From Azospirillaceae bacterium (GTDB lineage Bacteria; Pseudomonadota; Alphaproteobacteria; Azospirillales; Azospirillaceae): DNA of 64,000 bases. Shown here in pieces: positions 1,761-61,713 of the stretch. The position numbers and the translations under genes are program-made. Within the stretch, counting starts at the first letter, position 1. Every line of letters starts with the position of its first letter. The notes below the pieces were generated by a model. The model saw nothing but the letters and a program-made list of their open reading frames with translations. It did no database searches and was not told the DNA's origin. The stretch lies in assembly GCA_028283825.1 (NCBI GenBank), contig JAPWJW010000002.1:310001-374000 (forward strand), given 5' to 3'.

Positions 1761-1846
1761 TAGGCCCCGACCGGGGCCGCCGGAGCGAGCACCGCAGGGC
1801 GCGGTGAGGAAGCCAAGCCACCGTCAGGTGGCGCCGGCGCTTGAGG
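1761..1846 (+). repeat. Dispersed multi-hairpin repeat, copy 1 (short form)
   Basis: Member of the structured intergenic repeat family in this window. Hairpin b has arms GGCCCCG/CGGGGCC. Hairpin c is compact, with CACCGC/GCGGTG. The linker GAGGAAGCCAAG follows, then hairpin d with GCCACC/GGTGGC, and the terminal TTGAGG. The outer hairpin a (GCGGCAYGAG...) is missing. The TTGAGG end lies about 35 nt beyond the 3' end of the minus-strand TPR gene. Confidence 0.75.
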
Positions 1847-1881
1847 CCAAAAGACTCCGCGCCCGCCGCCTGAGGGAACCC

Positions 1882-2613
1882 TTAACTATTAGACGCCACC
1901 AGCTTCTGGCGAACCTCGGCCAGCAGGTCGCGGGCTTCGGCGCGGCGGCCAGCGTCCCACACCGGCTGTTCCACCGACACCGGGGCCTCCAGCGCGTGGG
2001 CCAGCACCCGTGCCGACTTCTCATACTCGCCCTGCTTCGACAGGAACTCGCCATAGAAGTAGTTGGATTCCAGGCCGTCGGGGCTCAGCGCGATGCCGCG
2101 TTCCAGGTACTTCTTGGCTTTGCTGTCACTGCCGAAGCCGATGGGGAAGCCCGGCATCAGGTAGTAGAGCGAGCCCAGGTTGACGGCCGCGGCACCCTGC
2201 ATGGCGGCCGGGTCGATCCTGTCGGCCTGCTCGAACAGCTCACGCGCCTTGCGCACCAGTTCCAGCGAGCCGGCGTTCTGGTCGTAGCCGGCGATGCTGC
2301 CCAGGATCAGGGCGTTCATGATCAGCGGCTCCGCCCGGCCGGGATACTGGGTGATCAGGCCGGTGGCGCGCGGCAGCAGGTCCCGCATCTTGGCCGACTG
2401 CGCCGCGTCGTCGTGCATCTGGTACTTGATGGCCGCCCAGTCGCGGGTCAGCTGCGCCACATCCTGCGCCATGGCCGGGTTGGCCGGCAGGCTGGCGGCG
2501 ACCGTGGCGGCATTTGCCGCCGGGCTGTCCACCGAGGCGGCCATCACCGCGACGGGGGAGGAAAGCATCAGGCTCAACAAGGTTGACATCACAACTAACT
2601 TACGGGCGCGCAT
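1882..2613 (-). CDS. Secreted TPR-repeat protein of unknown role
   Basis: 243 aa. The N-terminus has a basic stretch (MRARK), a hydrophobic core and an Ala-X-Ala-like cleavage region near residue 26, so Sec export is likely. The rest is helical. A recognisable tetratricopeptide pair at about residues 165-215 (AKKYLERGIALSPDGLESNY and the following EKSARVLAHALEAP) resembles the periplasmic TPR protein of some TRAP transporters, but no transporter subunits are adjacent. The start is the first ATG with AGGA upstream. It is divergent from the fds operon. Function not recognised. Confidence 0.8.
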   Translation of the reverse strand: MRARKLVVMSTLLSLMLSSPVAVMAASVDSPAANAATVAASLPANPAMAQDVAQLTRDWAAIKYQMHDDAAQSAKMRDLLPRATGLITQYPGRAEPLIMNALILGSIAGYDQNAGSLELVRKARELFEQADRIDPAAMQGAAAVNLGSLYYLMPGFPIGFGSDSKAKKYLERGIALSPDGLESNYFYGEFLSKQGEYEKSARVLAHALEAPVSVEQPVWDAGRRAEARDLLAEVRQKLVASNS

Positions 2614-2708
2614 GATCCATGTCCTAGCGACGGGCGTCCGGCTCCCCGGGCGTCCTAGGGTGTTATTGATGGCTGGAGGGTCGGGCGGTACGCCGGCCGG
2701 GCAGCGTT

Positions 2709-2725
2709 GATAGAATTTGTCTATC
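2709..2725 (+). promoter_or_regulatory. Candidate LysR-type regulator box upstream of fdsG
   Basis: Inverted repeat GATAGA-ATTTG-TCTATC containing ATAG-N7-CTAT, which fits the T-N11-A rule for LysR-family operators. It lies 88 nt before the fdsG start, in the divergent gap with the TPR gene. In some proteobacteria fds operons are controlled by a LysR regulator (FdsR). No lysR gene is visible here, so the assignment is inference. Confidence 0.45.
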
Positions 2726-2812
2726 GCAACATGGAACGGCTTCGTTGATTAAGCCGGGGCGATAGCCAACTTCTAATGACAGGGAGATTGCCTGAGACAT
2801 GAGGCCAAGGCT

Positions 2813-3325
2813 GTGACGCTTGCCACAACAACCACCGGCTGGACCCGCGAGAAGGCCGCTGAAGTCATTGCGGAACACCGGAATCTCGATGGGCCTGCAT
2901 TGCCGATACTGCATGCCTTGCAGGAAACCTTTGGCCACGTGCCCGATGACGCCGTCCCGCTCTTGGCTGAGGCGCTGAACCTTTCGCGCGCCGATGTCCA
3001 TGGCATCATTAGCTTTTACCATGACTTCCGCCACGCCCCCGCCGGCCGCCATGTGGTCAAGGTCTGCCGGGCGGAGGCTTGCCAGTCCATGGGGGGCCAT
3101 GCATTGGCCGAAGGGCTGCTGCACCGCCTTGGATTGCAATGGGGCGGCACCACCGGCGACGGCCAGGTGACGATTGAACCCGTCTATTGCCTGGGCCTGT
3201 GCGCCACCGCCCCCGCCGCCTTGGTGGACGGCCGGCCGGTGGGCCGCCTGAACCGCGAAAAACTCGACGCCGTGGTCAACGAGGTCCGCAACGACTGGTC
3301 CCATACGGGCCGGGTGGGTGCGTGA
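2813..3325 (+). CDS. fdsG: NAD-dependent formate dehydrogenase, gamma subunit
   Basis: 170 aa, NuoE-like thioredoxin-fold subunit that carries one [2Fe-2S] cluster in the soluble molybdenum formate dehydrogenase. Cluster ligands are visible as VCRAEACQS (CxxxxC) near residue 84 and YCLGLCA near residue 124. The GTG start at 2813 is the only sensible start; an upstream ATG at 2799 is out of frame and stops after a few codons. The stop overlaps the fdsB start (TGATG), indicating translational coupling. Cytoplasmic; works with FdsB and FdsA to pass electrons from formate to NAD+. Confidence 0.95.
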   Translation: MTLATTTTGWTREKAAEVIAEHRNLDGPALPILHALQETFGHVPDDAVPLLAEALNLSRADVHGIISFYHDFRHAPAGRHVVKVCRAEACQSMGGHALAEGLLHRLGLQWGGTTGDGQVTIEPVYCLGLCATAPAALVDGRPVGRLNREKLDAVVNEVRNDWSHTGRVGA

Positions 3326-4884
3326 TGGCTGTGACCCGTATCTTCATCCCCCGCGACGTGGCCGCCCTGGCGGTGGGCGCCGACGACGTGGCGCGCGCCG
3401 TGACGGCGCAGGCCGCCACCCTGGGTGCCGAGGTGGCGCTGGTGCGCACCGGTTCCCGCGGGATGTTCTGGCTGGAACCGATGGTGGAGGTGGAGACGGC
3501 CCAGGGCCGCATCGCCTACGGCCCGGTGGAACCGTCGGACGTGCCCGGCCTGTTCGCCGCCGGCTGGCTGGAAGGCGCCAGCCACCGCCTGCGCGTCGGC
3601 CGGCCGGAGGACCATCCCTTCCTGGCGGCGCAGACGCGCCTGACCTTCGCCCGCTGCGGCATCGTCGATCCCCTGTCGGTGGCCGACTACAAGGCCGGCG
3701 GCGGCTATCGCGGCCTGGTCAAGGCGATTGAGCTGGGCGGCGCCGCGACGGTGGAGGCGGTGACCAAGTCGGGCCTGCGCGGCCGCGGCGGCGCCGGTTT
3801 CCCCACCGGCATCAAGTGGAAGACGGTGCGCGACGCCGCCGCCGACCAGAAATACATCATCTGCAACGCCGACGAGGGCGACAGCGGCACCTTCGCCGAC
3901 CGCATGATCCTGGAGGGCGACCCCTTCTGCCTGATCGAGGGCATGACCATCGCCGGCTTGGCGGTGGGCGCCACCAAGGGCTTCATCTACTCCCGCTCCG
4001 AATACCCGCACGCCAACGCCACCATGGCGGCGGCACTCCAGGTCGCGCGGGCCGAGGGACTGCTGGGCCGGGGCATCCTGGGCAGCGACGTGGAATTCCA
4101 CCTGGAACTGCGGGTGGGGGCCGGCGCCTATGTCTGTGGCGAGGAAACCGCCCTGCTGGAAAGCCTGGAGGGCAAGCGCGGCATGGTGCGGGCGAAGCCG
4201 CCGCTGCCGGCGCTGAAGGGCCTGTTCGGCCGGCCCACCGTGGTCAACAACCTGCTGTCGCTGGCCACCATCCCGGTGATCATGGACCAGGGCGCGCAGT
4301 TCTACGCCGATTTCGGCATGGGCCGGTCGCGCGGCACCATGCCCATCCAGCTGGCCGGCAACATCCTGCATGGGGGCCTGTTCGAGACCGCGTTCGGCCT
4401 GACCCTGGGTGAGATCGTGATGGAGATCGGCGGCGGCACGGCCAGCCGGCGCCCGGTGCGCGCGGTGCAGGCCGGCGGCCCCCTGGGTGCCTACCTGCCG
4501 CCCAGCCAGTTCGACACCCTCTACGATTACGAGGCCTTCGCCGCCCGCGACGCCCTCATCGGCCATGGCGGCCTGGTGGTGTTCGACGACACGGTGGACA
4601 TGGCCCACATGGCCCGCTTCGCCATGGAGTTCTGCGCGGAGGAATCCTGCGGCAAGTGCACGCCCTGCCGCATCGGCTCCACCCGCGGGGCGGAGGTGGT
4701 GGACCGCATCCTGGCCGGCAAGGATGTGGCGGCCAACATCACCCTGCTGGAAGACCTCTGCAACACCATGAAGTTCGGCTCGCTATGCGCCCTGGGGGGC
4801 TTCACCCCCTATCCGGTGCTGAGCGCCATCAAGCATTTCCCTGAGGATTTTCACGGCCGGCGCCTGCCGGTCGCGGCCGAGTGA
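3325..4884 (+). CDS. fdsB: NAD-dependent formate dehydrogenase, beta subunit (FMN/NADH module)
   Basis: 519 aa, NuoE/NuoF-type fusion. An N-terminal thioredoxin-like part is followed by the FMN/NAD-binding motifs GRGGAGFPTGIKWK, NADEGDSGTFADRM and YVCGEETALLESLEGKRG, and the [4Fe-4S] ligand motif ESCGKCTPCRIGSTRG near residue 445. It takes electrons from FdsA through iron-sulfur clusters and reduces NAD+ at FMN. The ATG at 3325 overlaps the fdsG stop. The frame is open further upstream to 3187, but that part lies inside fdsG and is not needed. Confidence 0.95.
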   Translation: MAVTRIFIPRDVAALAVGADDVARAVTAQAATLGAEVALVRTGSRGMFWLEPMVEVETAQGRIAYGPVEPSDVPGLFAAGWLEGASHRLRVGRPEDHPFLAAQTRLTFARCGIVDPLSVADYKAGGGYRGLVKAIELGGAATVEAVTKSGLRGRGGAGFPTGIKWKTVRDAAADQKYIICNADEGDSGTFADRMILEGDPFCLIEGMTIAGLAVGATKGFIYSRSEYPHANATMAAALQVARAEGLLGRGILGSDVEFHLELRVGAGAYVCGEETALLESLEGKRGMVRAKPPLPALKGLFGRPTVVNNLLSLATIPVIMDQGAQFYADFGMGRSRGTMPIQLAGNILHGGLFETAFGLTLGEIVMEIGGGTASRRPVRAVQAGGPLGAYLPPSQFDTLYDYEAFAARDALIGHGGLVVFDDTVDMAHMARFAMEFCAEESCGKCTPCRIGSTRGAEVVDRILAGKDVAANITLLEDLCNTMKFGSLCALGGFTPYPVLSAIKHFPEDFHGRRLPVAAE

Positions 4885-4898
4885 AGGAGGCCCCCGCC

Positions 4899-9153: not shown

Positions 9154-10815
9154 ATGAGCGTGGCAACCTCGGGTTCCGTATCCGGAAACCCGACCGGGTC
9201 CCTATTGGATCGTGAGCGCATCGTCGCCCGGCCGGGCTTCAACCGGTGGCTGGTGCCGCCGGCCGCATTGGCCATTCATCTCTGCATCGGCATGGCCTAC
9301 GGCTTCAGCGTCTTCTGGCTGCCGCTCTCCAAGGCGCTGGGTGGCGTGCAGGATCCGTCGTGCAAGAACATCTCGCTGTTTGCGGCGTTGAGCACCACCA
9401 GCTGCGACTGGCGGGTGGCCGACATTCAGATCATGTACACGCTGTTCTTCGTCTTCCTGGGCTCCTCCGCCGCCGTCTGGGGCGGCTGGCTGGAACGGGT
9501 GGGGCCGCGCCGCGCCGGCGTGGTGGCCGCCTTCTGCTGGTGCGGCGGCATGGTGGTGTCGGCCGCCGGCATCATCGTCCATCAGCTGTGGCTGCTGTGG
9601 GTGGGGGGCATGATCGGCGGCGTGGGCCTGGGCCTGGGTTATATCTCGCCCGTCTCCACCCTCATCAAATGGTTCCCCGACCGGCGCGGCATGGCGACCG
9701 GCATGGCCATCATGGGCTTTGGTGGTGGCGCCATGATCGGCTCGCCGCTGGCCAACATCCTGATCAACCAGTTCAAGGGGCCGGACGGTGCCGGCGTGTG
9801 GCAGACCTTCCTGGTGCTGGCCGTCCTCTATTTCGTCTTCATGCTGGCCGGCGCCTTCGGCTACCGCATCCCGCCGGCGGGATGGCGCCCCGATGGCTGG
9901 ACGCCGCCGGTGTCGGCGCGCAAGGCCATGATCACCCACGGCCATGTCCACCTGAACGACGCCCACCGCACGCCGCAGTTCTGGCTGATCTGGGCCGTGC
10001 TGTGCCTGAACGTCAGCGCCGGCATCGGCGTCATCGGTATGGCCTCGCCCATGTTGCAGGAGATTTTCGCCGGCCGCCTGATCGGCCGTCCGGATCTGGG
10101 TTTTGACCAGTTGGACGCGGCGCAGAAAACCTCCATCGCCACCATTGGTGCTGCCTTCACCGGCCTGTTGTCGCTGTTCAACATCGGCGGCCGGTTCTTC
10201 TGGGCCTCGATCTCCGACCGGCTGGGGCGCAAGGTGACGTATGTCATCTTCTTCGCCCTGGGCCTGGCGCTGTACGCCGCCGCCCCCAGCCTGGCCCGCG
10301 CCGGCAGCGTGTCGCTGTTCGTGCTGGCCATCGGCATCATCCTGTCGATGTACGGCGGCGGCTTCGCCACGGTGCCGGCCTACCTGGCCGATATCTTCGG
10401 GACCCAGTTCGTGGGCGCCATCCACGGCCGGCTGCTGACCGCCTGGTCGGTGGCGGGCATCGTCGGCCCCATCGTGGTCGCCCAAATCCGTGAGGTGGAA
10501 CTGGCGCTGGGGATACCGAAGGACCACGTCTACGACGTCACCTTCTATGTCCTGGCCGTTTTCCTGGTGGTGGGGTTGCTGTGCAACCTGGCCATCCGGC
10601 AGCTGTCGGCCAAATGGTTCATGACCGATGGGCAGGTGGCGGCCCTGCAGGCCAAGGTGGTGGCCGCGGCCAACGCCGATGCCGCCGGCGGCACCTTCGG
10701 CATCGGCCGGGGCGGCCTGGACGCCAAGGCGGCGCTGGCTTGGGCTGCGGTGGGCATCCCCATCCTCTGGGGCGTGTGGGTCACCCTGCAAAAGGCGGCG
10801 CCGCTGTTTAATTAA
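9154..10815 (+). CDS. OFA-family MFS carrier (oxalate/formate antiporter type)
   Basis: 553 aa with about 12 predicted membrane segments, starting at about residue 31 (WLVPPAALAIHLCIGMAYGF). That opening, with GFSVFWLPLSKALG, is typical of the oxalate:formate antiporter (OFA) family. The cytoplasmic loop motif GRRFFWASISDRLGRK of major facilitators is present near residue 347. A long extramembrane insertion around residues 240-270 is seen. The start has a strong AGGAGG. Placement behind the formate dehydrogenase operon suggests formate or another short carboxylate as substrate; this is inference. Confidence 0.85.
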   Translation: MSVATSGSVSGNPTGSLLDRERIVARPGFNRWLVPPAALAIHLCIGMAYGFSVFWLPLSKALGGVQDPSCKNISLFAALSTTSCDWRVADIQIMYTLFFVFLGSSAAVWGGWLERVGPRRAGVVAAFCWCGGMVVSAAGIIVHQLWLLWVGGMIGGVGLGLGYISPVSTLIKWFPDRRGMATGMAIMGFGGGAMIGSPLANILINQFKGPDGAGVWQTFLVLAVLYFVFMLAGAFGYRIPPAGWRPDGWTPPVSARKAMITHGHVHLNDAHRTPQFWLIWAVLCLNVSAGIGVIGMASPMLQEIFAGRLIGRPDLGFDQLDAAQKTSIATIGAAFTGLLSLFNIGGRFFWASISDRLGRKVTYVIFFALGLALYAAAPSLARAGSVSLFVLAIGIILSMYGGGFATVPAYLADIFGTQFVGAIHGRLLTAWSVAGIVGPIVVAQIREVELALGIPKDHVYDVTFYVLAVFLVVGLLCNLAIRQLSAKWFMTDGQVAALQAKVVAAANADAAGGTFGIGRGGLDAKAALAWAAVGIPILWGVWVTLQKAAPLFN

Positions 10816-10819
10816 GGCC

Positions 10820-10943
10820 CCCTCAAACGCCGGGCGCCGGCATCCGCCGGCTTGGGCTTCCTCACTTTCCAGTCCGCTCCCCGGAAAGTTCCGGCGGCTG
10901 CGGTCGCAGCCTACAGCGGCACGAGGCAAAATCTCGTGCCGCT
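10820..10943 (-). repeat. Dispersed multi-hairpin repeat, copy 2 (full form)
   Basis: Begins CCCTCAA just after the OFA carrier stop. Hairpins in order: d GCCGGC/GCCGGC, c ACTTTCC/GGAAAGT (on the element's own strand), b GGCTGCG/CGCAGCC, a GCGGCACGAG/CTCGTGCCGC. Orientation is opposite to copy 1. It forms an inverted pair with copy 3 around the terminator at 10968. Confidence 0.85.
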
Positions 10944-10967
10944 TGCATGAGGCGGTTCTGGAAAGAC

Positions 10968-11023: not shown

Positions 11024-11115
11024 TAGCCTGCGACCGCAGGCGCCGGAGCTTTCCGGGGAGCGGAGCGGACTGGAAAGCGAGGATGGCAAGCGGCCGGATG
11101 GCCGCGCCCGCAGGG
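11024..11115 (+). repeat. Dispersed multi-hairpin repeat, copy 3
   Basis: Hairpin b GCCTGCG/CGCAGGC, hairpin c GCTTTCC/GGAAAGC around the conserved loop GGGGAGCGGAGCGGACT, linker CGAGGA, hairpin d GCGGCC/GGCCGC. Hairpin a is absent. The d end lies 9 nt from the bdhA stop, so a bdhA transcript would read straight into it. Confidence 0.8.
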
Positions 11116-11123
11116 CACCCGCA

Positions 11124-16761: not shown

Positions 16762-16890
16762 CCCTCAAACGCCGGGCGCCGGCATCCGCCGGCTTGGCTG
16801 TCCTCGCGTTTCAGTCCGCTACGCTCCCCAAAACGCTCCGGCGGCTGCGGTCGCAGCCTACAGCGGCACGAGGCAAACCCTCGTGCCGCT
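16762..16890 (-). repeat. Dispersed multi-hairpin repeat, copy 4 (full form)
   Basis: Starts CCCTCAA 4 nt after the EthD gene. Hairpins: d GCCGGC/GCCGGC, c GCGTTT/AAACGC, b GGCTGCG/CGCAGCC, a GCGGCACGAGG/CCTCGTGCCGC. The hairpin c arms differ from every other copy yet stay complementary. It fills the gap between two convergent genes. Confidence 0.87.
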
Positions 16891-24524: not shown

Positions 24525-24644
24525 AGCGGCATGAAACCTCATGCCGCTGTAGGCCGCGACCGCGGCCGCCGGAGCCTTTCGGGGAACGGAGTGGACTGAA
24601 AGGCGAGGAAGCCAAGCCGGTGGACACCGGCGCCGGCGTCTGGG
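24525..24644 (+). repeat. Dispersed multi-hairpin repeat, copy 5 (full form)
   Basis: Hairpins in order: a GCGGCATGA/TCATGCCGC, b GGCCGCG/CGCGGCC, c GCCTTTC/GAAAGGC, d GCCGGT/ACCGGC. It ends 21 nt before the GH5 start, so unlike most copies it lies in a 5' leader. Confidence 0.87.
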
Positions 24645-25888: not shown

Positions 25889-26017
25889 AGCGGCATGAGG
25901 CCTTGCCTCATGCCGCTGTAGGCCGCGACCGCGGCCGCCGGAGATTTCCGGGGAGCGTAGCGGACTGGAAATCGAGGAAGGCAAGCCGGCGGATGCCGGC
26001 GCCCGCCGATTGAGGGG
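25889..26017 (+). repeat. Dispersed multi-hairpin repeat, copy 6 (full form)
   Basis: Hairpins: a GCGGCATGAGG/CCTCATGCCGC, b GGCCGCG/CGCGGCC, c GATTTCC/GGAAATC, d GCCGGC/GCCGGC, end TTGAGGG. It sits between the convergent GH5 and mlaA genes; its TTGAGGG end faces the mlaA stop. Confidence 0.88.
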
Positions 26018-26044
26018 GCCGTTGATCGGTCACGATCAACGGCC
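26017..26044 (-). terminator. Hairpin after the mlaA-like gene
   Basis: Perfect 11-bp inverted repeat GGCCGTTGATC/GATCAACGGCC with a 6-nt loop, 7 nt past the stop of the minus-strand gene. No T-run follows, so it may be a Rho-independent-like pause or a 3'-end stabiliser, continuing directly into repeat copy 6. Confidence 0.55.
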
Positions 26045-30765: not shown

Positions 30766-31725
30766 ATGGAAAAGGCCGCGCGCCTGTTCGCCCTTCTGGG
30801 CCTGATCCTGGCCGTCGTCCTGGTGGCGCGTGAGGATACCGGCACGCTGTGGGCCCTGCTGAAGACCGGCGGCGTCGGCCTGGTGATCGCCGGCCTGTTC
30901 CACGCCGTGCCCATGGTGGCCAACGCGCGCGCCTGGCAGGTCCTGCTGCCGGGTGCCAAGCGGCCCAGCCTGGGCGCCATGGCGCGCAATGTCTGGATCC
31001 GCGAATCGGTCAACGGCCTGCTGCCGGTGGCCCGCATCGGGGGGGAGATCGTCTCCTTCCGCATTTTGCGCCTGGATGGGGTGCGGGTGGCACCCGCCGC
31101 CGCCAGCCTGGTGGTGGACATGGCCATCTCCATCCTCAGCCAGCTGGGTTTTTCCCTGCTGGCGGTGGGCCTGCTGGTGGCGCTGAAGGGCCCGGTGGGC
31201 ATCGCGGGCCAGGTCACCCTGGGCCTGCTGGCCATGGTGCCGCTGGTCGCCCTGTTCATCCTGGTGCAGCGCGCCGGCCTGTTCGCCAAGGTCACCGGCG
31301 TGCTGGACAAGGCGGCGTCCGGCCGCCTGGCCGGCATCATGGCGCACAGTGCCCGCATCGATCGCGCCTCCAAGGCCATGTACCGCCGCACCGGCGCCAT
31401 CACCGGCTGTTTCCTGTGGCAGCTGCTGGGCTGGTCCCTGGGTGCCGGCGAGGTCTGGCTGGCGCTGTGGGCGCTGGGCCACCCCCTGGGCATCGTCGAG
31501 GCGCTGGTGATCGAGGGCCTGATCCAGGCCGTCAGCAGTGCCGCCTTCATCGTGCCGGGTGCCTTGGGCGTGCAGGAAGGCGCCTTCCTGTTGCTGGGCG
31601 CGGCCTTGGGCCTGGACGCGCCCACGGCCCTGGCATTGGCCGCCGCCCGCCGCCTGCGTGACCTGGTGGTGTTCCTGCCGGGCCTGGTCGCCTGGACCGC
31701 CCTGGGAAAGGCCAAGGCGGCATGA
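30766..31725 (+). CDS. hpnL: Hopanoid-associated membrane protein HpnL
   Basis: 319 aa with about 8 membrane helices. It belongs to the flippase-like lysylphosphatidylglycerol synthase TM family: MVANARAWQVLLPG, IRESVNGLLPVARIGGEIVSF, and SSAAFIVPGALGVQEGAFLLLG. HpnL is conserved in hopanoid loci; its function is unproven, with lipid translocation a guess. It starts 11 nt after the true hpnK stop. The same frame is open into the disrupted hpnK, which is an artefact of that frameshift. Confidence 0.9.
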   Translation: MEKAARLFALLGLILAVVLVAREDTGTLWALLKTGGVGLVIAGLFHAVPMVANARAWQVLLPGAKRPSLGAMARNVWIRESVNGLLPVARIGGEIVSFRILRLDGVRVAPAAASLVVDMAISILSQLGFSLLAVGLLVALKGPVGIAGQVTLGLLAMVPLVALFILVQRAGLFAKVTGVLDKAASGRLAGIMAHSARIDRASKAMYRRTGAITGCFLWQLLGWSLGAGEVWLALWALGHPLGIVEALVIEGLIQAVSSAAFIVPGALGVQEGAFLLLGAALGLDAPTALALAAARRLRDLVVFLPGLVAWTALGKAKAA

Positions 31726-31816
31726 TCATGATCAACGCCATCCGCGCGGGTTCGCGCGATCTTCCGGCGCCGTTGCGCGCTGCCAACGGCTAACGCAACC
31801 GGAGCCTCGCATTCCC

Positions 31817-33415
31817 ATGGCGCATCTTGATGCGGTCCAATCCCCGCTGGTCCAAAGCCCGATCGCGGCCCATGCCGCCGGCCCCGCCGCCCGGCTGGGG
31901 TCCCTGGCGCTGCTGGCCGTGCTGGCGGTGGGCCTGGGGTATGTCGCGGTCAACGTGGCGGGGGATTTGCGCGGCCTGGGCACCGGCTCGGCGCTGCCCT
32001 TCCTGCTGCTGGGCGTGGCGCTGCTGATCGCGCTGGGGTTTGAATTCGTCAACGGCTTCCACGACACCGCCAACGCCGTGGCGACCGTCATCTACACCCA
32101 TTCCCTGCCGGCGCATGCGGCGGTGGTGCTGTCGGGCCTGTGCAACTTCGCCGGCGTGCTGGTGTCCACCGGTGCCGTCGCCTACGGCATCGTCTCGCTG
32201 TTGCCGGTGGAACTGATCCTGCGGGTGGGCAGCAATGTCGGCTTCGCCATGGTGTTCGCCCTGCTGATCTCCGCCGTGCTGTGGAATTTGGGCACCTGGG
32301 CCCTGGGCCTGCCGTCCTCCAGTTCCCACACCCTGATCGGGTCCATCATCGGCGTCGGCCTGATGAACCAGCTGATGGCCGCCCCGGGGGCCGCCGCCAG
32401 CGGCGTGGACTGGGGCCAGGCCGGCAAGATCATCCAGACGCTGCTGATCTCCCCCGTCGTCGGGTTCGTCTGCGCGGCCCTGCTGCTGGTCCTGATGCGC
32501 GCGACCATCAAGGACAAGGCGCTGTTCCAGGCGCCCAAGGGCAAGACGCCGCCGCCCTCCTGGATCCGCGGCCTGCTGGTGCTGACCTGTTCCGGCGTCA
32601 GTTTTGCCCATGGGTCCAACGACGGGCAGAAGGGCATGGGCCTGATCATGCTGATCCTGATCGGCACCATGCCCACGGCCTACGGCCTCAACCGCGCCAT
32701 CACCGCCGCCGACACGCCGGCCTACATCGCCACCTTCGACCGCGCCGGCGATGTGCTGAGCCACCATGTGGAACACACGCCCGCCGACCCGCGCGTGGCG
32801 GTGGAGGATTATGTCCGCACCGGCACCCTGACCAGCACGACCCTGGGCGGCTTGCGCGAACTGACGGCCAGCATCGCCGACCAGCTGCGCTTCTCCGGCG
32901 CCCTGTCCGGCGTGGCCCCGGGCCAGATGCGCAACGACATGTATCTGTCGGCGGAGGCGTTGCGTCGCCTGCAGAAACAGGGCGGCCCCATCCTGAATGA
33001 GGATGAGCGCGGGGCGCTGAGGGATCTGCTGGGCCGCTACGACCATGCCACCCGCTTCATCCCCACCTGGGTGAAGGTCGGTGTCGCCATCGCCCTGGGC
33101 CTGGGCACCATGGTGGGCTGGCGCCGCACCGTGGTGACGGTGGGCGAGAAGATCGGCAAGCAGCACCTGACCTACGGCCAGGGCGCGTCGGCCCAGCTGG
33201 TCGCCATGGCCACCATCGGTGCGGCCGACGCCTTCGGCCTGCCGGTCAGCACCACCCACGTGCTGTCGTCCGGCGTGGCCGGCACCATGGCGGCCAACGG
33301 CTCGGGCCTGCAATGGGCCACGGTGCGCAACATGGCCATGGCCTGGGTGCTGACCCTGCCGGCCTCCATCGCCCTGGCCGGCAGCCTGTTCTGGCTGTTC
33401 CGCCACCTGTTCTGA
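31817..33415 (+). CDS. PiT-family inorganic phosphate transporter, copy 1
   Basis: 532 aa. Two PD001131-like signatures of the PiT family, GFEFVNGFHDTANAVATVIYT near residue 76 and GVSFAHGSNDGQKGMGLI near residue 264, a large cytoplasmic loop (about 290-420) and C-terminal helices with SAQLVAMATIGAADAFGLPV. PiT proteins bring in metal-phosphate with protons. The frame is open upstream into hpnL, but ATG 31817 gives homology from the first residues with copy 2. It lies 1.5 kb from a very similar second copy. Confidence 0.93.
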   Translation: MAHLDAVQSPLVQSPIAAHAAGPAARLGSLALLAVLAVGLGYVAVNVAGDLRGLGTGSALPFLLLGVALLIALGFEFVNGFHDTANAVATVIYTHSLPAHAAVVLSGLCNFAGVLVSTGAVAYGIVSLLPVELILRVGSNVGFAMVFALLISAVLWNLGTWALGLPSSSSHTLIGSIIGVGLMNQLMAAPGAAASGVDWGQAGKIIQTLLISPVVGFVCAALLLVLMRATIKDKALFQAPKGKTPPPSWIRGLLVLTCSGVSFAHGSNDGQKGMGLIMLILIGTMPTAYGLNRAITAADTPAYIATFDRAGDVLSHHVEHTPADPRVAVEDYVRTGTLTSTTLGGLRELTASIADQLRFSGALSGVAPGQMRNDMYLSAEALRRLQKQGGPILNEDERGALRDLLGRYDHATRFIPTWVKVGVAIALGLGTMVGWRRTVVTVGEKIGKQHLTYGQGASAQLVAMATIGAADAFGLPVSTTHVLSSGVAGTMAANGSGLQWATVRNMAMAWVLTLPASIALAGSLFWLFRHLF

Positions 33416-34251: not shown

Positions 34252-35838
34252 ATGGCCCATGCGGAAGCCGTGCATTCACCCGTCGCAACCTCCGGCGGAC
34301 CGGCCGCGCGTTATGGGACGTTGGCGTTCCTGGTCCTGATGGCCGTCGGCCTGGGCTATATGGCGGTCAACCTGATCGGTGACCTCAGCGGGGTCGACAC
34401 CCGATCCGCCCTGCCGTTCGTCCTGCTGGGCGTGGCGCTGCTGATCGCGCTGGGCTTTGAATTCGTCAACGGCTTCCACGACACGGCCAACGCCGTGGCG
34501 ACGGTGATCTACACCCACTCCCTGCCGGCCAACGTGGCGGTGATGTGGTCGGGCCTGTGCAACTTCGCCGGCGTGCTGTTCTCCACCGGCGCGGTGGCCT
34601 TCGGCATCGTCTCGCTGCTGCCGGTCGAACTGATCCTGCAGGTCGGCAGCGACGCCGGCTTCGCCATGGTGTTCGCCCTGCTGATCGCCGCCATCCTGTG
34701 GAACCTGGGCACCTGGTACCTGGGCCTGCCGTCCTCCAGTTCCCACACCCTGATCGGTTCCATCATCGGCGTCGGCCTGATGAACCAGATGATGGCGACC
34801 AGCGGCACCGCCACCAGCGGCGTTGACTGGGGCCAGGCGACCAAGATCATCCAGACCCTGCTGATCTCCCCCGTCATCGGCTTCGTCTGCTCCGCCGCCC
34901 TGCTGGTCCTGATGCGCACGGTGATCAAGGACAAGGCCCTGTTCAAGGCGCCGGAGGGCAACAAGGCGCCGCCTTCCTGGATCCGCGGCCTGCTGGTGCT
35001 CACCTGCTCCGGCGTCAGCTTCGCCCACGGCTCCAACGACGGGCAGAAGGGCATGGGCCTGATCATGCTGATCCTGATCGGCACGGTGCCCACCGCCTAC
35101 GCCCTCAACCGTGCCGTCACCATCCACGACACCCCCGCCTACATCGCCACCTTCGACCATGCCGGCGACGTGCTGAGCCACTACGTCAAGGAGACGCCGG
35201 CCGACCCCCGCGCGGCGGTGGAGGATTTCGTCCGCACCCGCACCATGACCGACAGCACCATGGGCGGCGTCCATGACCTGACGGCCAGCATCGCCGACCA
35301 GATCCGCGCCTATGGCTCCCTGGACCAGGTGCCGCAGGAAAACGTGCGCAACGTCCGCAACGACATGTACCTGTCGGCCGAGGCCCTGCGCCAAATCCAG
35401 AAGAAGGGCGACCTGATCCAGGCCGCCGACCAGCCGGTGCTGAAGGAACTGCTGGGCCGCTACGACAACGCCACCCGCTTCATCCCCACCTGGGTGAAGG
35501 TCGGCGTCGCCATCGCCCTGGGCCTGGGCACCATGGTGGGCTGGAAGCGCATCGTGGTGACGGTGGGTGAGAAGATCGGCAAGGACCACCTGACCTACGG
35601 CCAGGGCGCCTCGGCCGAACTGGTGGCCATGGCCACCATCGGTGCGGCCGACGCCTTCGGCCTGCCGGTCAGCACCACCCACGTGCTGTCATCGGGCGTG
35701 GCCGGCACCATGGCGGCCAACGGCTCCGGCCTGCAATGGGCCACCGTGCGCAACATGGCCATGGCCTGGGTGCTGACCCTGCCGGTGTCCATCGTCCTGG
35801 CCGGCAGCCTGTTCTGGTTGTTCCGCCACGTGTTCTGA
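34252..35838 (+). CDS. PiT-family inorganic phosphate transporter, copy 2
   Basis: 528 aa, collinear with copy 1 over its whole length, with only scattered substitutions and a small insertion (ENVRNVRND). Same signatures: GFEFVNGFHDTANAVAT and SFAHGSNDGQKGMG. The ATG has AAAGGA upstream. The gap before it contains TTGTCATGAGTCTTGCCGT (34197-34215), a poor match to a Pho box. A terminator follows at 35872, and the group II intron is inserted just beyond it. Confidence 0.93.
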   Translation: MAHAEAVHSPVATSGGPAARYGTLAFLVLMAVGLGYMAVNLIGDLSGVDTRSALPFVLLGVALLIALGFEFVNGFHDTANAVATVIYTHSLPANVAVMWSGLCNFAGVLFSTGAVAFGIVSLLPVELILQVGSDAGFAMVFALLIAAILWNLGTWYLGLPSSSSHTLIGSIIGVGLMNQMMATSGTATSGVDWGQATKIIQTLLISPVIGFVCSAALLVLMRTVIKDKALFKAPEGNKAPPSWIRGLLVLTCSGVSFAHGSNDGQKGMGLIMLILIGTVPTAYALNRAVTIHDTPAYIATFDHAGDVLSHYVKETPADPRAAVEDFVRTRTMTDSTMGGVHDLTASIADQIRAYGSLDQVPQENVRNVRNDMYLSAEALRQIQKKGDLIQAADQPVLKELLGRYDNATRFIPTWVKVGVAIALGLGTMVGWKRIVVTVGEKIGKDHLTYGQGASAELVAMATIGAADAFGLPVSTTHVLSSGVAGTMAANGSGLQWATVRNMAMAWVLTLPVSIVLAGSLFWLFRHVF

Positions 35839-35903: not shown

Positions 35904-36298
35904 CATGGTGCGCCCAGCATGGGCGCGTTCTTGAGGGTGGAAGTCCCTCCGTAAGCTGATCACGGTGAACGAAGCGAAACGCAACTGCGAGAGGGCGACT
36001 GATCGTGGGGAGGAAGCGTGGAGCGAAACCACGAGCCGATGAACAAGAACCGGATAGAAGGCGGTGCCGAGCAGGGCGAGCGGGCCATGAACCGCGAAGC
36101 TCTCGTGATCAAGGGTCGGCGCCGTAGATCCGGCGGTTGTGTGGTGAAGGAGCGCGCTCTTACCTGGGGAGATCCCGCCTTATGCCTGAAAGGGTGACGG
36201 TGTCGAGCCGGAGCGGGAAGTCAGCAGAGGTCATAGTAGGGGCCGGTTCAACTGGTGCCGAAGGACCGAACGAGGAGGAGTGTTGATCCACCGTGGCG

Positions 36299-37660
36299 AT
36301 GCGGAAGGCAGAGCGTCAGATGTCCGCGCAAGCGGGGCGGTCGGGAGGGGGGCGAGGTGAAGCCTTGCCCGGGCCCGGCAGCGACGAAGCCTTGCGCCCG
36401 TGCCCGGAAATGGAAAACACGGGGTCAGGGCTGCTGCTGGCGGCCCTGACGCGAGAGAACCTGCAACGGGCTTGGCGACGGGTGCGGTCCAACAAGGGCG
36501 CGGCGGGGGTTGACGGTCTGGACATTGACCAGACGGCGGCCCATCTGCGCACGGTGTGGCCCGCGATCCGGAGCCAGGTGTTGTCGGGGACGTACCGGCC
36601 TTGGCCGGTACGACGGGTGGCGATCCCGAAGCCGGACGGTGGCGAGCGTGAACTCGGCATCCCGACGGTGACGGATCGCCTGATCCAGCAGGCGCTGCTG
36701 CAGGTGTTGCAGCCGCTCCTTGATCCGAGCTTCAGCGAGTACAGCTACGGCTTCCGTCCGGGGCGAGGGGCGCACGACGCGGTGCTGAAGGCACAGTCGT
36801 ACGTCCAGTCGGGCCGGCGGGTTGTGGTTGACGTGGACCTGGAGAAGTTCTTCGACCGGGTGAACCACGACATCCTGATCGACCGTCTCTGGAAGCGCAT
36901 TGGGGATGCCGGCATCGTCCGGCTGATCCGGTCGTACCTGGACAGCGGGATCATGGTGGGGGGCGTGGTCCAGGCACGGGAGAGGGGGACGCCGCAGGGC
37001 GGCCCGCTGTCGCCGCTGCTGGCCAACGTCTTGCTCGACGAGGTGGACCGGGAACTGGAGCGCCGGGGTCATCGCTTCGTGCGCTACGCTGACGATGCGA
37101 ACGTTTACGTTCGCAGCCGGAAGGCGGGTGAACGGGTGATGGCGCTGTTGCGGCGGCTCTACGGCCGACTGCGTCTCTCGGTCAACGAGACCAAGAGCGC
37201 GGTGACCAGCGTGTTCGGCCGCAAGTTCCTGGGCTACGGCTTCTGGGTGGCGCCCGGTGGCGTCATCAAGCGGCGGGTTGCCGACAAGCCGCTGGCGACC
37301 TTCAAGCATCGCATCCGGCAGCTGACCCGCCGTTCCGGCGGGAACAGTGTGCAGGAGGTGGTGATGCGCCTGCGTTCCTATGTTCTGGGATGGAAGGCCT
37401 ACTTCCGCCTGGCGCAGACACCCCGGGTCTGGAACGACCTGGACAAGTGGATGCGCCATCGGCTGCGGGCCATCCAGCTCAAGCATTGGAAACGGGGCAC
37501 GACCATCTACAGGGAACTGAAAGCACTCGGGGCCAAACCCAAGGTGCTCCATCAGGTGGCGGCCAATAGCCGCCGCTGGTGGCGCAACAGCGGGATGGCC
37601 CTCAATGCCGTCCTCTCCCTGCAATGGGCGGACGCCCTGGGAATGCCCCGTCTCTCTTGA
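36299..37660 (+). CDS. ltrA: Group II intron reverse transcriptase/maturase
   Basis: 453 aa from ATG 36299 (GTG 36293 and ATG 36410 are alternatives). Reverse transcriptase blocks: RVRSNKGAAGVDGLD (RT0-1), VRRVAIPKPDGGERELGIP, SYGFRPGRGAHDAV, VVDVDLEKFFDRVNHDIL, GTPQGGPLSPLLANVLLDE and the catalytic YADDANVYV. The maturase X/GIIM domain follows (LGYGFWVAPGG, then YVLGWKAYFRLAQTPRVWNDL). No HNH endonuclease zinc motif is seen. All catalytic residues are present. Confidence 0.95.
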   Translation: MRKAERQMSAQAGRSGGGRGEALPGPGSDEALRPCPEMENTGSGLLLAALTRENLQRAWRRVRSNKGAAGVDGLDIDQTAAHLRTVWPAIRSQVLSGTYRPWPVRRVAIPKPDGGERELGIPTVTDRLIQQALLQVLQPLLDPSFSEYSYGFRPGRGAHDAVLKAQSYVQSGRRVVVDVDLEKFFDRVNHDILIDRLWKRIGDAGIVRLIRSYLDSGIMVGGVVQARERGTPQGGPLSPLLANVLLDEVDRELERRGHRFVRYADDANVYVRSRKAGERVMALLRRLYGRLRLSVNETKSAVTSVFGRKFLGYGFWVAPGGVIKRRVADKPLATFKHRIRQLTRRSGGNSVQEVVMRLRSYVLGWKAYFRLAQTPRVWNDLDKWMRHRLRAIQLKHWKRGTTIYRELKALGAKPKVLHQVAANSRRWWRNSGMALNAVLSLQWADALGMPRLS

Positions 37661-56863: not shown

Positions 56864-56941
56864 CGGCCGGCGACCGCCGGCCCGGACCGGCCAGGTCCGT
56901 GAGCCAAGCCAGCGGATGCTGGCGCCCGGCGCCTGAGGGGG
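56864..56941 (+). repeat. Dispersed multi-hairpin repeat, copy 7 (short form)
   Basis: Hairpin b GGCCGGCG/CGCCGGCC, compact hairpin c CGGACC/GGTCCG, linker GAGCCAAG, hairpin d GCCAGC/GCTGGC, terminal TGAGGGG. Hairpin a is missing. Arms differ from all other copies but pair perfectly. Confidence 0.75.
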
Positions 56942-56966
56942 CATTTGATCGATCAAGATCAAATGC
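56941..56966 (-). terminator. Hairpin after the DprE2-like gene
   Basis: Perfect 10-bp inverted repeat GCATTTGATC/GATCAAATGC with a 6-nt loop, 15 nt past the stop, leading into repeat copy 7. Same layout as the hairpin after mlaA (26017). Confidence 0.55.
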
Positions 56967-56981
56967 CGCGCGTATGAATCC

Positions 56982-57728
56982 TCAGATCCGCGTGCGCTTG
57001 AACACCGCCTCCGGCAGCAGGCGGATGATGGTCATGACCAGCAGCCAGACGGGACGCACGTAGACCACGTCCCGGCCTTTCGCCTGGGCGCGCAGGATGG
57101 CGTCCGCCACCTCCGCCGGCTGGGCGGTCAGGGGCTTGGGCAGGGGCATGCCGGCGGTCATGCGGGTATCGACGAAGCCGGGCTTCACCGTGATGACGTG
57201 CACGCCCGTTCCCTGCAGCCGCTGGCGCAGGCCGGACAGGAAGGCGGTGAAGCCGGCTTTGGCGGACCCGTAGACATAGTTGGTGGCCCGGCCCCGGTCG
57301 CCGGCCACGGAACTGACGCCGATCAGGATGCCGGATCCGCGCTTTTCCATGCGCTGGGCCAGTTCGCCCAGGATGGCGGCGGGGCCGTTGTAGTTGCTGC
57401 GCATCACCAGGTCGGCGGTCAGCGGGTCGGTGGCCGACGCCGCCTGGTCGCCCAGCAGGCCCACCATGCTGACGGCCACGTCGGGCAAGTCACCCAGCCC
57501 GTCCAGGAAGGCGCCGGCGCCGGCGATGTCCAGCACGTCGAAATCCACCAGCCGCACCTCCGCCTGGCTGCGCAGGCGCAAATCGGCGGCGTCCGTCTCC
57601 AGCCGCCGGGCGTCGCGGGCCGCCAGGATCAGCCGGGCGCCGCCCCGGGCATAGGCGCGGGCCAGGGCCAGGCCGATGTCGCTGGCGGCGCCGAGGATAA
57701 GGACAGTCTGGGATGATGCGGCGGTCAT
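56982..57728 (-). CDS. DprE2-like short-chain dehydrogenase
   Basis: 248 aa. SDR with LILGAASDIGLALARAYARGG, catalytic Ser in GVSSVAGDRG and YxxxK in YVYGSAKAGF, and a C-terminal hydrophobic stretch (VWLLVMTIIRLLPEAVF). AGDRGRASNYVYGSAKAGF-like sequence and pairing with the flavoprotein next door match the keto-reductase half of the decaprenylphosphoryl-ribose epimerase of mycobacteria. It would reduce the 2'-keto sugar to the arabino form. ATGA overlap with the oxidase gene. Confidence 0.85.
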   Translation of the reverse strand: MTAASSQTVLILGAASDIGLALARAYARGGARLILAARDARRLETDAADLRLRSQAEVRLVDFDVLDIAGAGAFLDGLGDLPDVAVSMVGLLGDQAASATDPLTADLVMRSNYNGPAAILGELAQRMEKRGSGILIGVSSVAGDRGRATNYVYGSAKAGFTAFLSGLRQRLQGTGVHVITVKPGFVDTRMTAGMPLPKPLTAQPAEVADAILRAQAKGRDVVYVRPVWLLVMTIIRLLPEAVFKRTRI

Positions 57729-59068: not shown

Positions 59069-59069
59069 A

Positions 59070-60509
59070 TCAGATGCTGGTCAGCATGATCAGGCCGATC
59101 AGCCCGGCGCAGATCCAGGAGACGCGGTCCTTGGCGGCGAACAGCACGGGGTCGTCGTGCATTTCCCCCCGATGGGTTTTGATCAGGATGCGGCCGATCC
59201 AGTACAGCAGCACCACCGGTGTGCCCCACAGCACCTCGGGCCGGCTGTACAGCTGCGCCACCGTGTCGCTGGTGAGGTAGAGGAAGAAAGTCAGCACGGC
59301 GACGGTGCCGTTGGAGGCCGCCATCATTTCCAGGATGGGCAGGTCGTCCAGGCGGTAGGCGTAGCGCGGCGGGGCTGCGGCACCGCGCAGGACGCGCGCC
59401 CGCAGTTCCGAGCAGCGCTTGACCAGCGCCAGGCTGAGGAACAGGAAGACGGAGAAGGTCAGCAGCCAGGACGACAGCGGCACGTCCGTCGCGGCGGCGC
59501 CGGCCACCAGGCGGCTGCCATACAGGCAGGCCAGGGTGATGACGTCCAGGGTCGGCTGTCGTTTCACGCCCAGGGAATAGGCCATGGTCACGGCGTAATA
59601 ACCGGCCAGGACCAGCAGGAAATGCCAGGGCAGGAACAGGGCGATGACGCCGGCCCCCACCAGCGTCAGGGGCAGCAGGAACAGGCCGTGCAGGATGTCC
59701 ACCTGCCCCGCCGCGAACGGCCGCCAGCGCTTGGTCGGATGCTCCCGGTCGCTTTTCAGGTCCAGCAGGTCGTTCAGGATGTAGACGCTGGAGGCGCACA
59801 GGCTGAAGCTGAGGAAGGCGGCGGCGCAGGCGGCCAAGGTGGCGAAACTGAAATGGTGGGCGGTGAAGGCCGGCACGAAGATCAGCAGGTTCTTCAGCCA
59901 TTGATGCACGCGCAGCACGCGGCGGTATTCCGCCAGGCCGGTGTTTTTCCGCGTGATCACCTGGGCGTCGGGATGGCGCGCCTTGACGGTGCGCAGCAGG
60001 CCGGCGGCGGCGTCCACCACCACCACGCCGCGCGCGTCCTTCCACACGGCCAAATCCACCGCCGCGTTGCCGGCATAGTCGAATCCGCCCTGGCCGAACG
60101 CCGCGCACAGCGCGGCCGACTTGGCGGCACCGGCCAGGTTGTTTTCCGGCGTTGAGGCGAAGATACCGTCGAACAGGCCGACGCGGTCGGCGATGGCCTG
60201 GACGTGGGCGTGGGTGGAGGCGGAGGCCAGGTAGATGCGGCGGCCCTTGGCCTTTTCCTCATGCAGCCAGGACACCAGTTCCTCATTCAGGGGCAGGGTG
60301 TGGAAATCCAGAAGGGCGCGCTTGGCCACCGCCGCCTTGAAGCGGGCCTTGTCGCCCAGGTGGCGCAAGGCCGCCAGCGCATCCAACGGCGACGTGGTCA
60401 GCAGGGCGAAGAAGGATTCCACCAGCAGGTCGGTCCGGATCAGCGTGCCATCCAAATCCACGACCAGCGGCACGTCCTCGCCCGCATCCTGCTTCTGATT
60501 GTCGATCAT
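59070..60509 (-). CDS. HAD-UbiA fusion prenyltransferase
   Basis: 479 aa from ATG 60509. An N-terminal HAD phosphatase-like domain (about 1-200) with VVDLDGTLIRTD, LASASTH and a late Asp motif, then a UbiA prenyltransferase (about 215-479, about nine helices) with NDLLDLKSDREHPTKRWRP and the second Asp motif region YSLGVKRQPTLDVITLA. Similar fusions are known in bacteria that put D-arabinose on lipids or Nod factors (NoeC-type), where UbiA makes polyprenyl-phosphoryl 5-phosphoribose and the HAD part can remove the 5-phosphate. First gene of the three-gene operon. Confidence 0.87.
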   Translation of the reverse strand: MIDNQKQDAGEDVPLVVDLDGTLIRTDLLVESFFALLTTSPLDALAALRHLGDKARFKAAVAKRALLDFHTLPLNEELVSWLHEEKAKGRRIYLASASTHAHVQAIADRVGLFDGIFASTPENNLAGAAKSAALCAAFGQGGFDYAGNAAVDLAVWKDARGVVVVDAAAGLLRTVKARHPDAQVITRKNTGLAEYRRVLRVHQWLKNLLIFVPAFTAHHFSFATLAACAAAFLSFSLCASSVYILNDLLDLKSDREHPTKRWRPFAAGQVDILHGLFLLPLTLVGAGVIALFLPWHFLLVLAGYYAVTMAYSLGVKRQPTLDVITLACLYGSRLVAGAAATDVPLSSWLLTFSVFLFLSLALVKRCSELRARVLRGAAAPPRYAYRLDDLPILEMMAASNGTVAVLTFFLYLTSDTVAQLYSRPEVLWGTPVVLLYWIGRILIKTHRGEMHDDPVLFAAKDRVSWICAGLIGLIMLTSI

Positions 60510-60651
60510 GCCCACCCGAGGCCCCCGCCCCAACCCATTGTAAAATCCAGTCCCATCCGACCTCTACCAGGAGAGGGGCGGGTGCCGGCGGAGTATATTT
60601 CGTTCCGCCACCGGAAAATATCCCATTCGCACGGGAAGCTGTACGGGTGTC

Positions 60652-61269
60652 TTACAGGGAAGCTTGGCCGCACAAGGGCCGGGGCAGGGCGCCCTCAAGC
60701 AGCTGGGTGATGTGCCGGTCCATCCAGCCGGGCTCATCCAGCGTGGCGAAGCGGATCAGCAGGCGGGCGTACAGGGCGCCGTACAGCGCCTCCACCAGCG
60801 TCTCCACGTCCAGGTCGGTGCGGAACTCGCCGTTCTTCTTGCCGCGTTCAAGGATGTCGCGCAGGCGCTGGCGGCGGGGTTCCACCACCTTCTCATGATA
60901 GACCTTCAGGGTGGCGGGGTCGTTCTGCCCGGCCAGCACGATGCTGGCCACCACCCGGCCGGTGGCGCCGGCGAAATTGCGGGCGATGCCGTCCAGCACC
61001 GCGCGCAGATCGGCCACGGCGGACGCTGTGTGGGGGAAGGGCACCGTCAGCTCGGCATAGGCCAGCAGGGCTTCCATCGCCAGGGCGCCCTTGCCCGGCC
61101 ACCAGCGGTAGATCGTGGTCTTGGCGGTGCCGGACCGCGCCGCCACGCCCTCGATGGTGAACTTTTCCAGGCCGTTTTCTTCCAGCAGCAGAAACGCCGC
61201 CTCCAGGATGGCGTCGCGCGCCTGATCCGATCGGGGACGTCCGGGTCCCCGCATGGCTTTGTCCGTCAC
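60652..61269 (-). CDS. TetR/AcrR-family regulator
   Basis: 205 aa from GTG 61269, supported by AAGGAG 6-7 nt upstream; a longer frame to 61305 lacks such a site. Helix-turn-helix in FTIEGVAARSGTAKTTIYRWW, preceded by RGPGRPRSDQARDAIL. The C-terminal helical ligand domain is of the TetR_C type. A perfect palindrome 77 nt upstream is a probable operator, suggesting autorepression. No efflux or enzyme gene is divergently adjacent, so its target is unclear. Confidence 0.92.
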   Translation of the reverse strand: MTDKAMRGPGRPRSDQARDAILEAAFLLLEENGLEKFTIEGVAARSGTAKTTIYRWWPGKGALAMEALLAYAELTVPFPHTASAVADLRAVLDGIARNFAGATGRVVASIVLAGQNDPATLKVYHEKVVEPRRQRLRDILERGKKNGEFRTDLDVETLVEALYGALYARLLIRFATLDEPGWMDRHITQLLEGALPRPLCGQASL

Positions 61270-61345
61270 CCTGTCTCCTTTTCCCCTGAAGGCGCCAGCA
61301 TCCAATGCGCGGGCCGGCCGTTCGCGACGTCCTCCCCAAAGGACA

Positions 61346-61365
61346 GAAACGCTACACAGCGTTTC
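61346..61365. promoter_or_regulatory. Probable TetR operator
   Basis: Palindrome GAAACGCT-ACAC-AGCGTTTC, 8 of 8 pairs, 77 nt upstream of the TetR start. Size and symmetry suit TetR-family dimers. Confidence 0.65.
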
Positions 61366-61539
61366 GATTGTCGCAGTGCTCCCACCCGCTGGATGACACT
61401 ATCCTACACTTACGAAACGGACCATAGCGAAATATCCCCCGCGACGGCCCATTCGGCATAGGGAAACTGTAGCCGCGCCAGGCGCCGCGCAGAAGCCCGA
61501 TTACCGGCGGCATCCTCCCCCGCACCCTGCCGTCGGTTC

Positions 61540-61573
61540 ACGGCCCGGTTCCCCACGGCGGGAACCGGGCCGT
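61540..61573. terminator. Strong G/C hairpin without T-run
   Basis: 14-bp arms ACGGCCCGGTTCCC/GGGAACCGGGCCGT with a 6-nt loop, 15 nt from repeat copy 8. It may end transcripts of the minus-strand chemoreceptor that pass through the repeat. Confidence 0.5.
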
Positions 61574-61587
61574 ACTTATGCCTGTCG

Positions 61588-61713
61588 CCCTCAATCGCCG
61601 GGCGCCGGCATCCGCCGGCTGGGCTATCCTCGCTTTCCAGTCCACTGACGTTCCCCGGAAAGCTCCGGCGGCCCCGGTCGGGGGCTACAGCGGCATGAGC
61701 GTCTCATGCCGCC
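61588..61713 (-). repeat. Dispersed multi-hairpin repeat, copy 8 (full form)
   Basis: Starts CCCTCAA; hairpins d GCCGGC/GCCGGC, c GCTTTCC/GGAAAGC, b GGCCCCG/CGGGG(G)CC with one extra G, a GCGGCATGAG/CTCATGCCGC. The a end lies about 33 nt past the stop of the minus-strand chemoreceptor. Confidence 0.87.

Follow-up and report, generated by a model that had tools for sequence, protein, structure and literature searches.

The window analysed here, a 64,000-nucleotide (nt) stretch (G000:C2:310001-374000) of a 7.16-Mb genome in five contigs, inferred to be Nitrospirillum, holds eight copies of a dispersed repeat built as a chain of hairpins, which probably belong to a family of miniature inverted-repeat transposable elements (MITEs). 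All eight had been described in the initial annotation, and their coordinates were reproduced here; in searches with model R1, built from 31 copies, these loci were the only clear copies in the window, and two further matches at E<0.1 (23.6 and 21.1 bits) fell on the antisense strand of hairpin a in copies 6 and 4. Five copies carry hairpins a-b-c-d and copies 1, 3 and 7 lack a, as first reported. The best match was copy 6 (25889-26017, forward strand; 154.3 bits), with ATTGAGGGG, which served as the query for DNA searches. Its hairpins a (25889-25917), c (25943-25973, with a GGA/GGA internal loop and a GTA apical loop) and d (25985-26000, loop GGAT) were placed by folding and sequence, and its hairpin e (26017-26044) by sequence, all on the forward strand. 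The other full copies were copy 4 (16762-16890, reverse; 148.2 bits), copy 2 (10820-10943, reverse; 133.9 bits; with TTTGAGGG), starting 5 nt beyond the final base of an MFS gene (9154-10815), copy 8 (61588-61713, reverse; 128.4 bits; with ATTGAGGG) and copy 5 (24525-24644, forward; 121 bits), which has TACC immediately 5′ and precedes a GH5 cellulase gene (Pfam). Copy 3 (11024-11115, forward; 80.7 bits) keeps b-c-d, has lost the TGAGG end and lies downstream of a hairpin that resembles a terminator and has a T-run. Copy 1 (1761-1846, forward; 42.5 bits), in a convergent gene gap, comprises b, c, d and TGAGG, while copy 7 (56864-56941, forward; 41.9 bits with R1 and 77.6 bits with R2, a model of the b, c, d core) comprises b, c, d and CCTGAGGG; in both, hairpin c is short and of a different type. 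Copy 7 continues with hairpin e (56940-56967, forward) and a worn right end, GCGCGTA, next to which stands the TNA triplet TGA (56968-56977, forward). Against dinucleotide shuffles, single-strand folding of the five full copies gave z values from −3.4 to −5.3, while copies 1, 3 and 7 folded more weakly (−2.2, −2.5 and −1.1, equalled by 6, 4 and 25 of 200 shuffles, respectively).

The full element is TACC-a-b-c-linker-d-TGAGG-e-GGTA between 3-bp TNA duplications, with a length of 135-169 nt in the copies measured end to end. Its parts were counted in 77 genus copies (the 78 best of 106 R1 rows, at 67 bits or more, minus one duplicate), the R1 and R2 alignments being fitted to their own structures. 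GTA stood ahead of hairpin b in 43 of the 77, the loop of b was GACC, GACT or GACG in 64 and a shorter GAC in 4, and GCCGGA separated b from c in 57. Hairpin c consists of an outer stem, a GGA/GGA internal loop (54 of 77) and an apical stem with mainly GnA/GnnA loops, and a GAGGA-linker joins it to hairpin d, whose loop was GGAT or GGAC with a C-G closing pair in 72 copies. A three-base stem between this linker (GCC/GGC) and the segment after d (GGC/GCC) covaries, being C-G in 64 and G-C in 12 of the 77. Hairpin d is mostly followed by GCCCGGCGnnTGAGGG, and many copies then present hairpin e, as in copies 6 and 7. This hairpin goes beyond the first description, as do the three-base stem, the internal loop of c and the TACC/GGTA ends with their TNA duplications. 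The GC content of the repeat matches was 0.57-0.86, which differs from the AT-richness listed for bacterial MITEs.

The initial annotation had favoured selection on structure over a simple mobile repeat, and its dismissal of mobility proved wrong: full-length relatives have inverted ends and TNA duplications, and copies are often absent from the orthologous gaps of congeners. The TACC/GGTA ends of full-length relatives match at 8 to 12 of 14 end bases, giving the terminal inverted repeats expected of MITEs. From 269 core anchors, 42 distinct candidates were obtained in which TACC and GGTA each occurred exactly once where expected. TNA stood to the left of TACC in 34 of these, to the right of GGTA in 32 and on both sides in 30, the background being 4.8% of 1172 sites for TNA ahead of TACC. 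Identical flanking triplets, as left by target duplication, were found in 24 of the 42, all of them TNA (mean 7.3 and maximum 18 in 5000 shuffles). In a stricter set of 14, TNA was present on the left in 14 and on the right in 13, with 11 identical pairs (mean 3.4 and maximum 9 in 2000 shuffles). When sequences were scanned for TACC ends flanked by matching TNA, 45 pairs were obtained, of which 32 measured 135-169 nt (the L163 and L290 rows being one copy); these 32 were mostly this repeat family, many source loci having been chosen for core presence. The remainder comprised one deletion derivative, probable chance pairs and the insertion sequence (IS) at C2:291534-292702. The derivative, at G000:C2:139881-140001, is 120 nt long, has TACC ends, is flanked by TCA on either side and keeps TGAGGG and hairpin e, most of the core being gone. 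With an element length below 200 bp and 83 copies dispersed over 1.25 Mb of the source genome, size and abundance are also those of a MITE.

Two reading frames of the IS just mentioned (1168 bp) encode segments with matches to HTH_33, HTH_32 and DDE_3, which we take to be an IS630-family transposase. Three copies in the source genome, 99.7-100% identical, each have the form TTA|TACCAAAGAGCG...CGTTGGTA|TTA, and the element thus duplicates TNA rather than TA. One complete copy in G006 is flanked by TAA on both sides, and a related element of 1201 bp is flanked at three G012 loci by the pairs TCA, TAA and TTA. The repeat therefore has its ends (TACC) and target (TNA) in common with a resident IS630-family element, further end similarity being weak. 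Since the repeat and the IS630-family elements of the genus share ends and TNA duplications, an IS630-type transposase would move the repeat in trans, and such insertion sequences are its likely mobilisers. A half-element search for an autonomous copy in the 1.25 Mb turned up three isolated halves apart from known copies, one left and two right. Clustering of neighbouring genes for a partner protein yielded no cluster covering more than four of the loci used, and ten neighbour proteins scanned gave seven ordinary Pfam matches (pheS, glgB, cheB/cheR and others) and three without a match. IS5-family loci were also tried as mobilisers and rejected, as inverted ends flanked by TNA were obtained, at the setting used, for none of the eight.

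Orthologous gaps in the relatives G003 or G006 were located for 19 copies of the source contig. In 16 of them the core was absent by script motif, 14 gaps being of about empty size and two altered otherwise, so that filled and empty sites coexist; the remaining three copies were common to relatives, one of them visible through reciprocal comparison only. For copy 4, for example, the gap is 19 nt long in G006 and 16 nt long in G003, while copy 3 is shared with G006.

Mapping of the copies against stop codons, proposed in the initial annotation, showed that some of them touch stops and that they favour convergent gaps. Genes were called with our own hexamer-based caller, and 824 of the 915 called genes end in TAA or TGA. 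A total of 49 of the 83 copies lay in convergent gaps, compared with 148 convergent gaps among 913 (Fisher 1e−16; copies compared with gaps), and only three in divergent gaps; 47 of the 148 convergent gaps held a copy, against 3 of 149 divergent ones. Moreover, 13 of 66 stops facing the 5′ side of a copy end exactly at the position of the TNA before TACC; 12 of these are TAA or TGA and one is TAG, the next four letters being TACC in 4 cases and other in 9. On the 3′ side (n=63), the gene stop was found at 5-6 nt in 13 cases and at 36 nt in 5, the latter spacing being consistent with hairpin e lying between. A separate terminator-like hairpin adjoins several copies. Because TAA and TGA are themselves TNA, insertion duplicates the triplet and the reading frame is still ended; TNA targeting thus fits copies that touch stops and fill convergent gaps, although promoter avoidance would favour such gaps as well.

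The 83-copy set corresponds to R1 matches of at least 40 bits, after removal of duplicates and two half-matches and with one copy rejoined across two stretches, and would amount to several hundred copies per genome. DNA similarity was limited to the genus (7 of 21 genomes), while R1 detected the structure in 12 of the 21, other genera included. A core pattern, which fixes the linker letters and is informative for stems and spacings only, matched at least 120 stretches in named genomes. Among the 80 titles listed, the names were all alphaproteobacterial or metagenome-assembled genomes (MAGs) labelled just Proteobacteria, judged from names without taxonomy look-up, and included Nitrospirillum (four genomes), Niveispirillum, Magnetospirillum, Roseomonas and other Acetobacteraceae, Novispirillum, Telmatospirillum, Sphingomonadaceae and others. 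With R2, the core (b, c, d and TGAGG) was found in 27 of 289 genomes of the class, in 20 of 219 genera, and in 16 of 397 genomes of a phylum sample, all 16 from the same class (the number from other classes in the sample not being shown); the filters of both searches were stricter, and weak matches are lost. This patchy, mostly multi-copy distribution is as expected of a mobile element. Plasmid and phage collections gave no DNA match to the repeat. L388, L412 and L413 (one viral-collection contig, 47865 bases) showed 19 exact core matches, many in tandem with a spacing of about 90-116 nt, and contigs L395 and L398 had copies in opposite-strand pairs. Copies adjoin the 3′ end of an alpha-type transfer-messenger RNA gene in a Falsiroseomonas (L147:6945-7454) and that of a tRNA gene in a Sphingomonadales MAG (L171:3224-3552), and lie near pheS-like frames in L176, L212 and L240 (Pfam check on L176).

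That the stems vary between copies and stay complementary, as first noticed in the window, was borne out across the class. In 123 distinct class-wide core copies, the covariation score was 0.471, compared with 0.120 in shuffled copies (standard deviation 0.007; none of 500 as high) and 0.05-0.09 in a slid-partner control, as expected of a structured RNA. In these copies 86.7% of stem cells were paired and 580 cells showed two-sided change; helix d reached 97.4%, with G-C and C-G both frequent. A less decisive measure, the number of pairs with two-sided change, was 18 compared with 16.5 in shuffles (24 of 500 as high). Both controls model the tree only partly and the copies are related, so these changes are not independent events. 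No Rfam family corresponds to the repeat, in agreement with the failure to recognise a named family at first: no gathering-score match was obtained on the window repeats or 18 further loci, and four loci searched up to E 10 gave nothing credible, the best overlaps being a microRNA model at 20-21 bits with a cut-off of 90. The first proposal of an RNA or a protein-bound cruciform was narrowed in part. In the genus, G.U pairs exceeded A.C mismatches in the outer stem of c (87 vs. 1; two often-wobble pairs supply 75, leaving 12:1) and in stem a (30 vs. 9 in the outer 11 pairs, binomial 0.0005; 45:18 over all 13), which is evidence against a symmetric cruciform in those stems. No such asymmetry was present in b (4:3) and d (2:3), nor class-wide in d (3 vs. 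4 among 737 lettered cells), and class-wide b had more A.C than G.U (55 vs. 23), its outer pairs being poorly aligned. Loop identity did not separate DNA from RNA, as energy tables give the repeat loops no special place; cGNNAg and cGNABg are DNA loop motifs.

Changes in place were followed in seven orthologous copy pairs, which showed 33 two-sided changes keeping pairing, 3 one-sided changes keeping it and 9 breaking changes. When non-comparable helices were excluded (hairpin a of pair 7, one side of which is a terminator, and a and c of pairs 5 and 6, which supplied 11 of the 33 two-sided changes and 5 of the 9 breaking ones), the counts were 22, 3 and 4, and hairpins b and d alone gave 9, 0 and 1. 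This two-sided excess is larger than we would expect if RNA evolved stepwise by way of G.U, and it points to DNA hairpins changing in a coordinated manner or to conversion between copies, while the persistent GGA/GGA mismatch and G.U pairs of hairpin c argue that selection acts too. In particular, copy 3, whose ends are lost, differs from its G006 orthologue by three two-sided and no one-sided stem changes and by one loop base; a copy without ends still changes in a paired way, and pairing is thus kept without mobility.

Taken together, the repeats are probably an alphaproteobacterial family of non-autonomous MITEs with a conserved multi-hairpin core, mobilised by an IS630-type transposase and with the core kept by selection. 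The transposase would act in trans, and insertions into TAA or TGA would survive by rebuilding the stop codon. The core would outlast the worn ends because selection keeps the single-stranded form folded, either as read-through RNA of 3′ untranslated regions or as single-stranded DNA, and coordinated two-arm changes in DNA hairpins may help to keep it paired. A more far-reaching version, held only tentatively, is that a stop-sparing, TNA-targeting transposon placed a class-wide structured nucleic acid at the 3′ ends of hundreds of genes, the core then being retained as a working 3′-end module (RNA or single-stranded DNA) after mobility was lost.

Several observations weigh against the proposal of an IS630-mobilised MITE family. 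Most ends in the source genome are worn: its one copy in the set of 14 has an imperfect duplication (TGA/TGC), and its two candidates among the 42 lack TNA. Among the copies listed from sphingomonads, Acetobacteraceae and Magnetospirillum, those read by eye were mostly without TACC/GGTA ends. Regarding the mobiliser, only four of the 12 additional IS-like loci scanned combined TACC ends with matching TNA, the sequence shared between the repeat end TACCAGCGGC and the IS end TACCAAAGAGCG is short, and neither G010 nor G011, though both carry the repeat, yielded a relative of this IS in a DNA search. Two gaps scored as empty retain a CGGCGnnTGAGG remnant, so some of the differences between genomes are losses rather than the absence of an insertion. 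Finally, co-directional copies were 17 sense and 14 antisense, and by GC skew 45 copies lay on the lagging and 38 on the leading strand; this unbiased orientation to genes and replication does not favour a transcript-bound role.

The last point bears also on an alternative given about one chance in three, namely that the core functions as an RNA element at the 3′ ends of transcripts (a stabiliser, processing site or protein-binding site), with mobility merely its means of spread. The G.U excess in genus stems a and c, the conserved unpaired linkers and loops, the internal loop of c that stays non-complementary and the compensatory change of end-less copies at shared sites all speak for it, while the lack of gene-strand bias and the G.U to A.C counts of b and d do not. 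Those same two stems, in which G.U intermediates are almost missing, together with the excess of two-sided over one-sided kept changes, would be accounted for if pairing were kept mainly by DNA mutation, through hairpin template switching or inter-copy conversion rewriting both arms, instead of by selection. Nevertheless, such a corrector should also erase the frequent G.U pairs of hairpin c and its GGA/GGA mismatch, both of which persist; an arm-symmetric process predicts equal G.U and A.C, which fails in genus a and c; and wholesale conversion should bring linkers and flanks along. This explanation is given slightly less weight than the functional RNA.

Movement as single-stranded DNA by a Y1 (IS200-like) transposase, in the manner of repetitive extragenic palindromic (REP) sequences with their REP-associated tyrosine transposases (RAYTs), would suit the GTA(G) ahead of hairpin b, the CAAG ahead of d and the single-strand asymmetry of a and c, and Y1 genes occur in G010, G011, G013 and G019, all with R1 matches. 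However, Y1_Tnp was found in none of the seven genus genomes searched despite their many copies, a motif check at six Y1 loci elsewhere revealed no adjoining copy, G009 has Y1 and no R1 match, and duplications with inverted ends fit a DDE transposon, making this origin very improbable. Overall, Y1_Tnp genes were present in 5 of the 15 relatives searched (G009, G010, G011, G013 and G019), four of which carry R1 matches. A role as intrinsic terminators or as a sponge for CsrA, to which the 3′-end location and the many GGA motifs might point, is scarcely credible: inspection of 83 tails by eye showed no T-run immediately after TGAGGG or hairpin e, a distinct terminator-like hairpin stands beside several copies, and the genome has no CsrA family match.

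Elsewhere in the window, positions 35989-37660 hold a Group II intron that matches Rfam D1D4-3 and D1D4-1 and is accompanied by a reverse transcriptase/maturase gene (RVT_1, GIIM). Two neighbouring genes of PHO4-family phosphate transporters at 31538-33415 and 34252-35838 share DNA stretches that are 78-93% identical, as from a tandem duplication.

The proposed MITE family offers a testable reason for the presence of a mobile element at stop codons, as TAA and TGA are the target and the duplication rebuilds them. With many paralogues per genome, several genera, and shared as well as empty sites, it also provides a natural experiment on whether strong covariation reflects RNA selection or coordinated change of DNA hairpins.

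A literature search, largely at title level, brought up no published description recognised as this repeat family. The nearest kind is an IS630-linked bacterial MITE such as RUP of Streptococcus pneumoniae, described as an intergenic MITE of 107 bp with about 110 copies, proposed mobilisation by IS630-Spn1 and a predicted folded transcript (PMC2229807, PMC3049150). Inverted ends, an intergenic location and the IS630-family link are common to both, whereas RUP is AT-rich with a TA-containing target and the present repeat has a 3-bp TNA duplication, a GC-rich hairpin chain, strong covariation and a class-wide core. AT-richness is given as a common MITE feature (PMC2229807); in our view it is not a defining one. 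According to the same review, ERIC and Correia/NEMIS repeats are likewise small, mobile and non-coding, with folded RNA and duplicated targets, but form one stem loop by pairing of their two ends, in contrast to the separate hairpins and conserved linkers found here (PMC2229807). The CIR repeats of Caulobacter and Brucella are also alphaproteobacterial, intergenic and about 110 bp long, with two linker-joined arms. Judged by one motif, identity with them is improbable: GANTC, conserved in CIR (PMC2229807), occurred in 14 of 77 genus copies and in none of 126 core copies. GANTC sites in the repeat numbered 17 compared with 24.7 in shuffled copies, and were denser than the contig average. The GTAG/CGTC REPs with RAYTs are likewise high-copy palindromes, and the repeat has a GTAG-like foot at hairpin b; however, REPs are palindromes of 20-40 bp (PMC3733652), and no Y1 transposase was found in the seven genomes of the genus, as stated above. 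Lastly, the IS630-family IS at C2:291534-292702 has the same TACC...GGTA ends and TNA duplication as the repeat, but carries a transposase, and no multi-hairpin core was noted in it.

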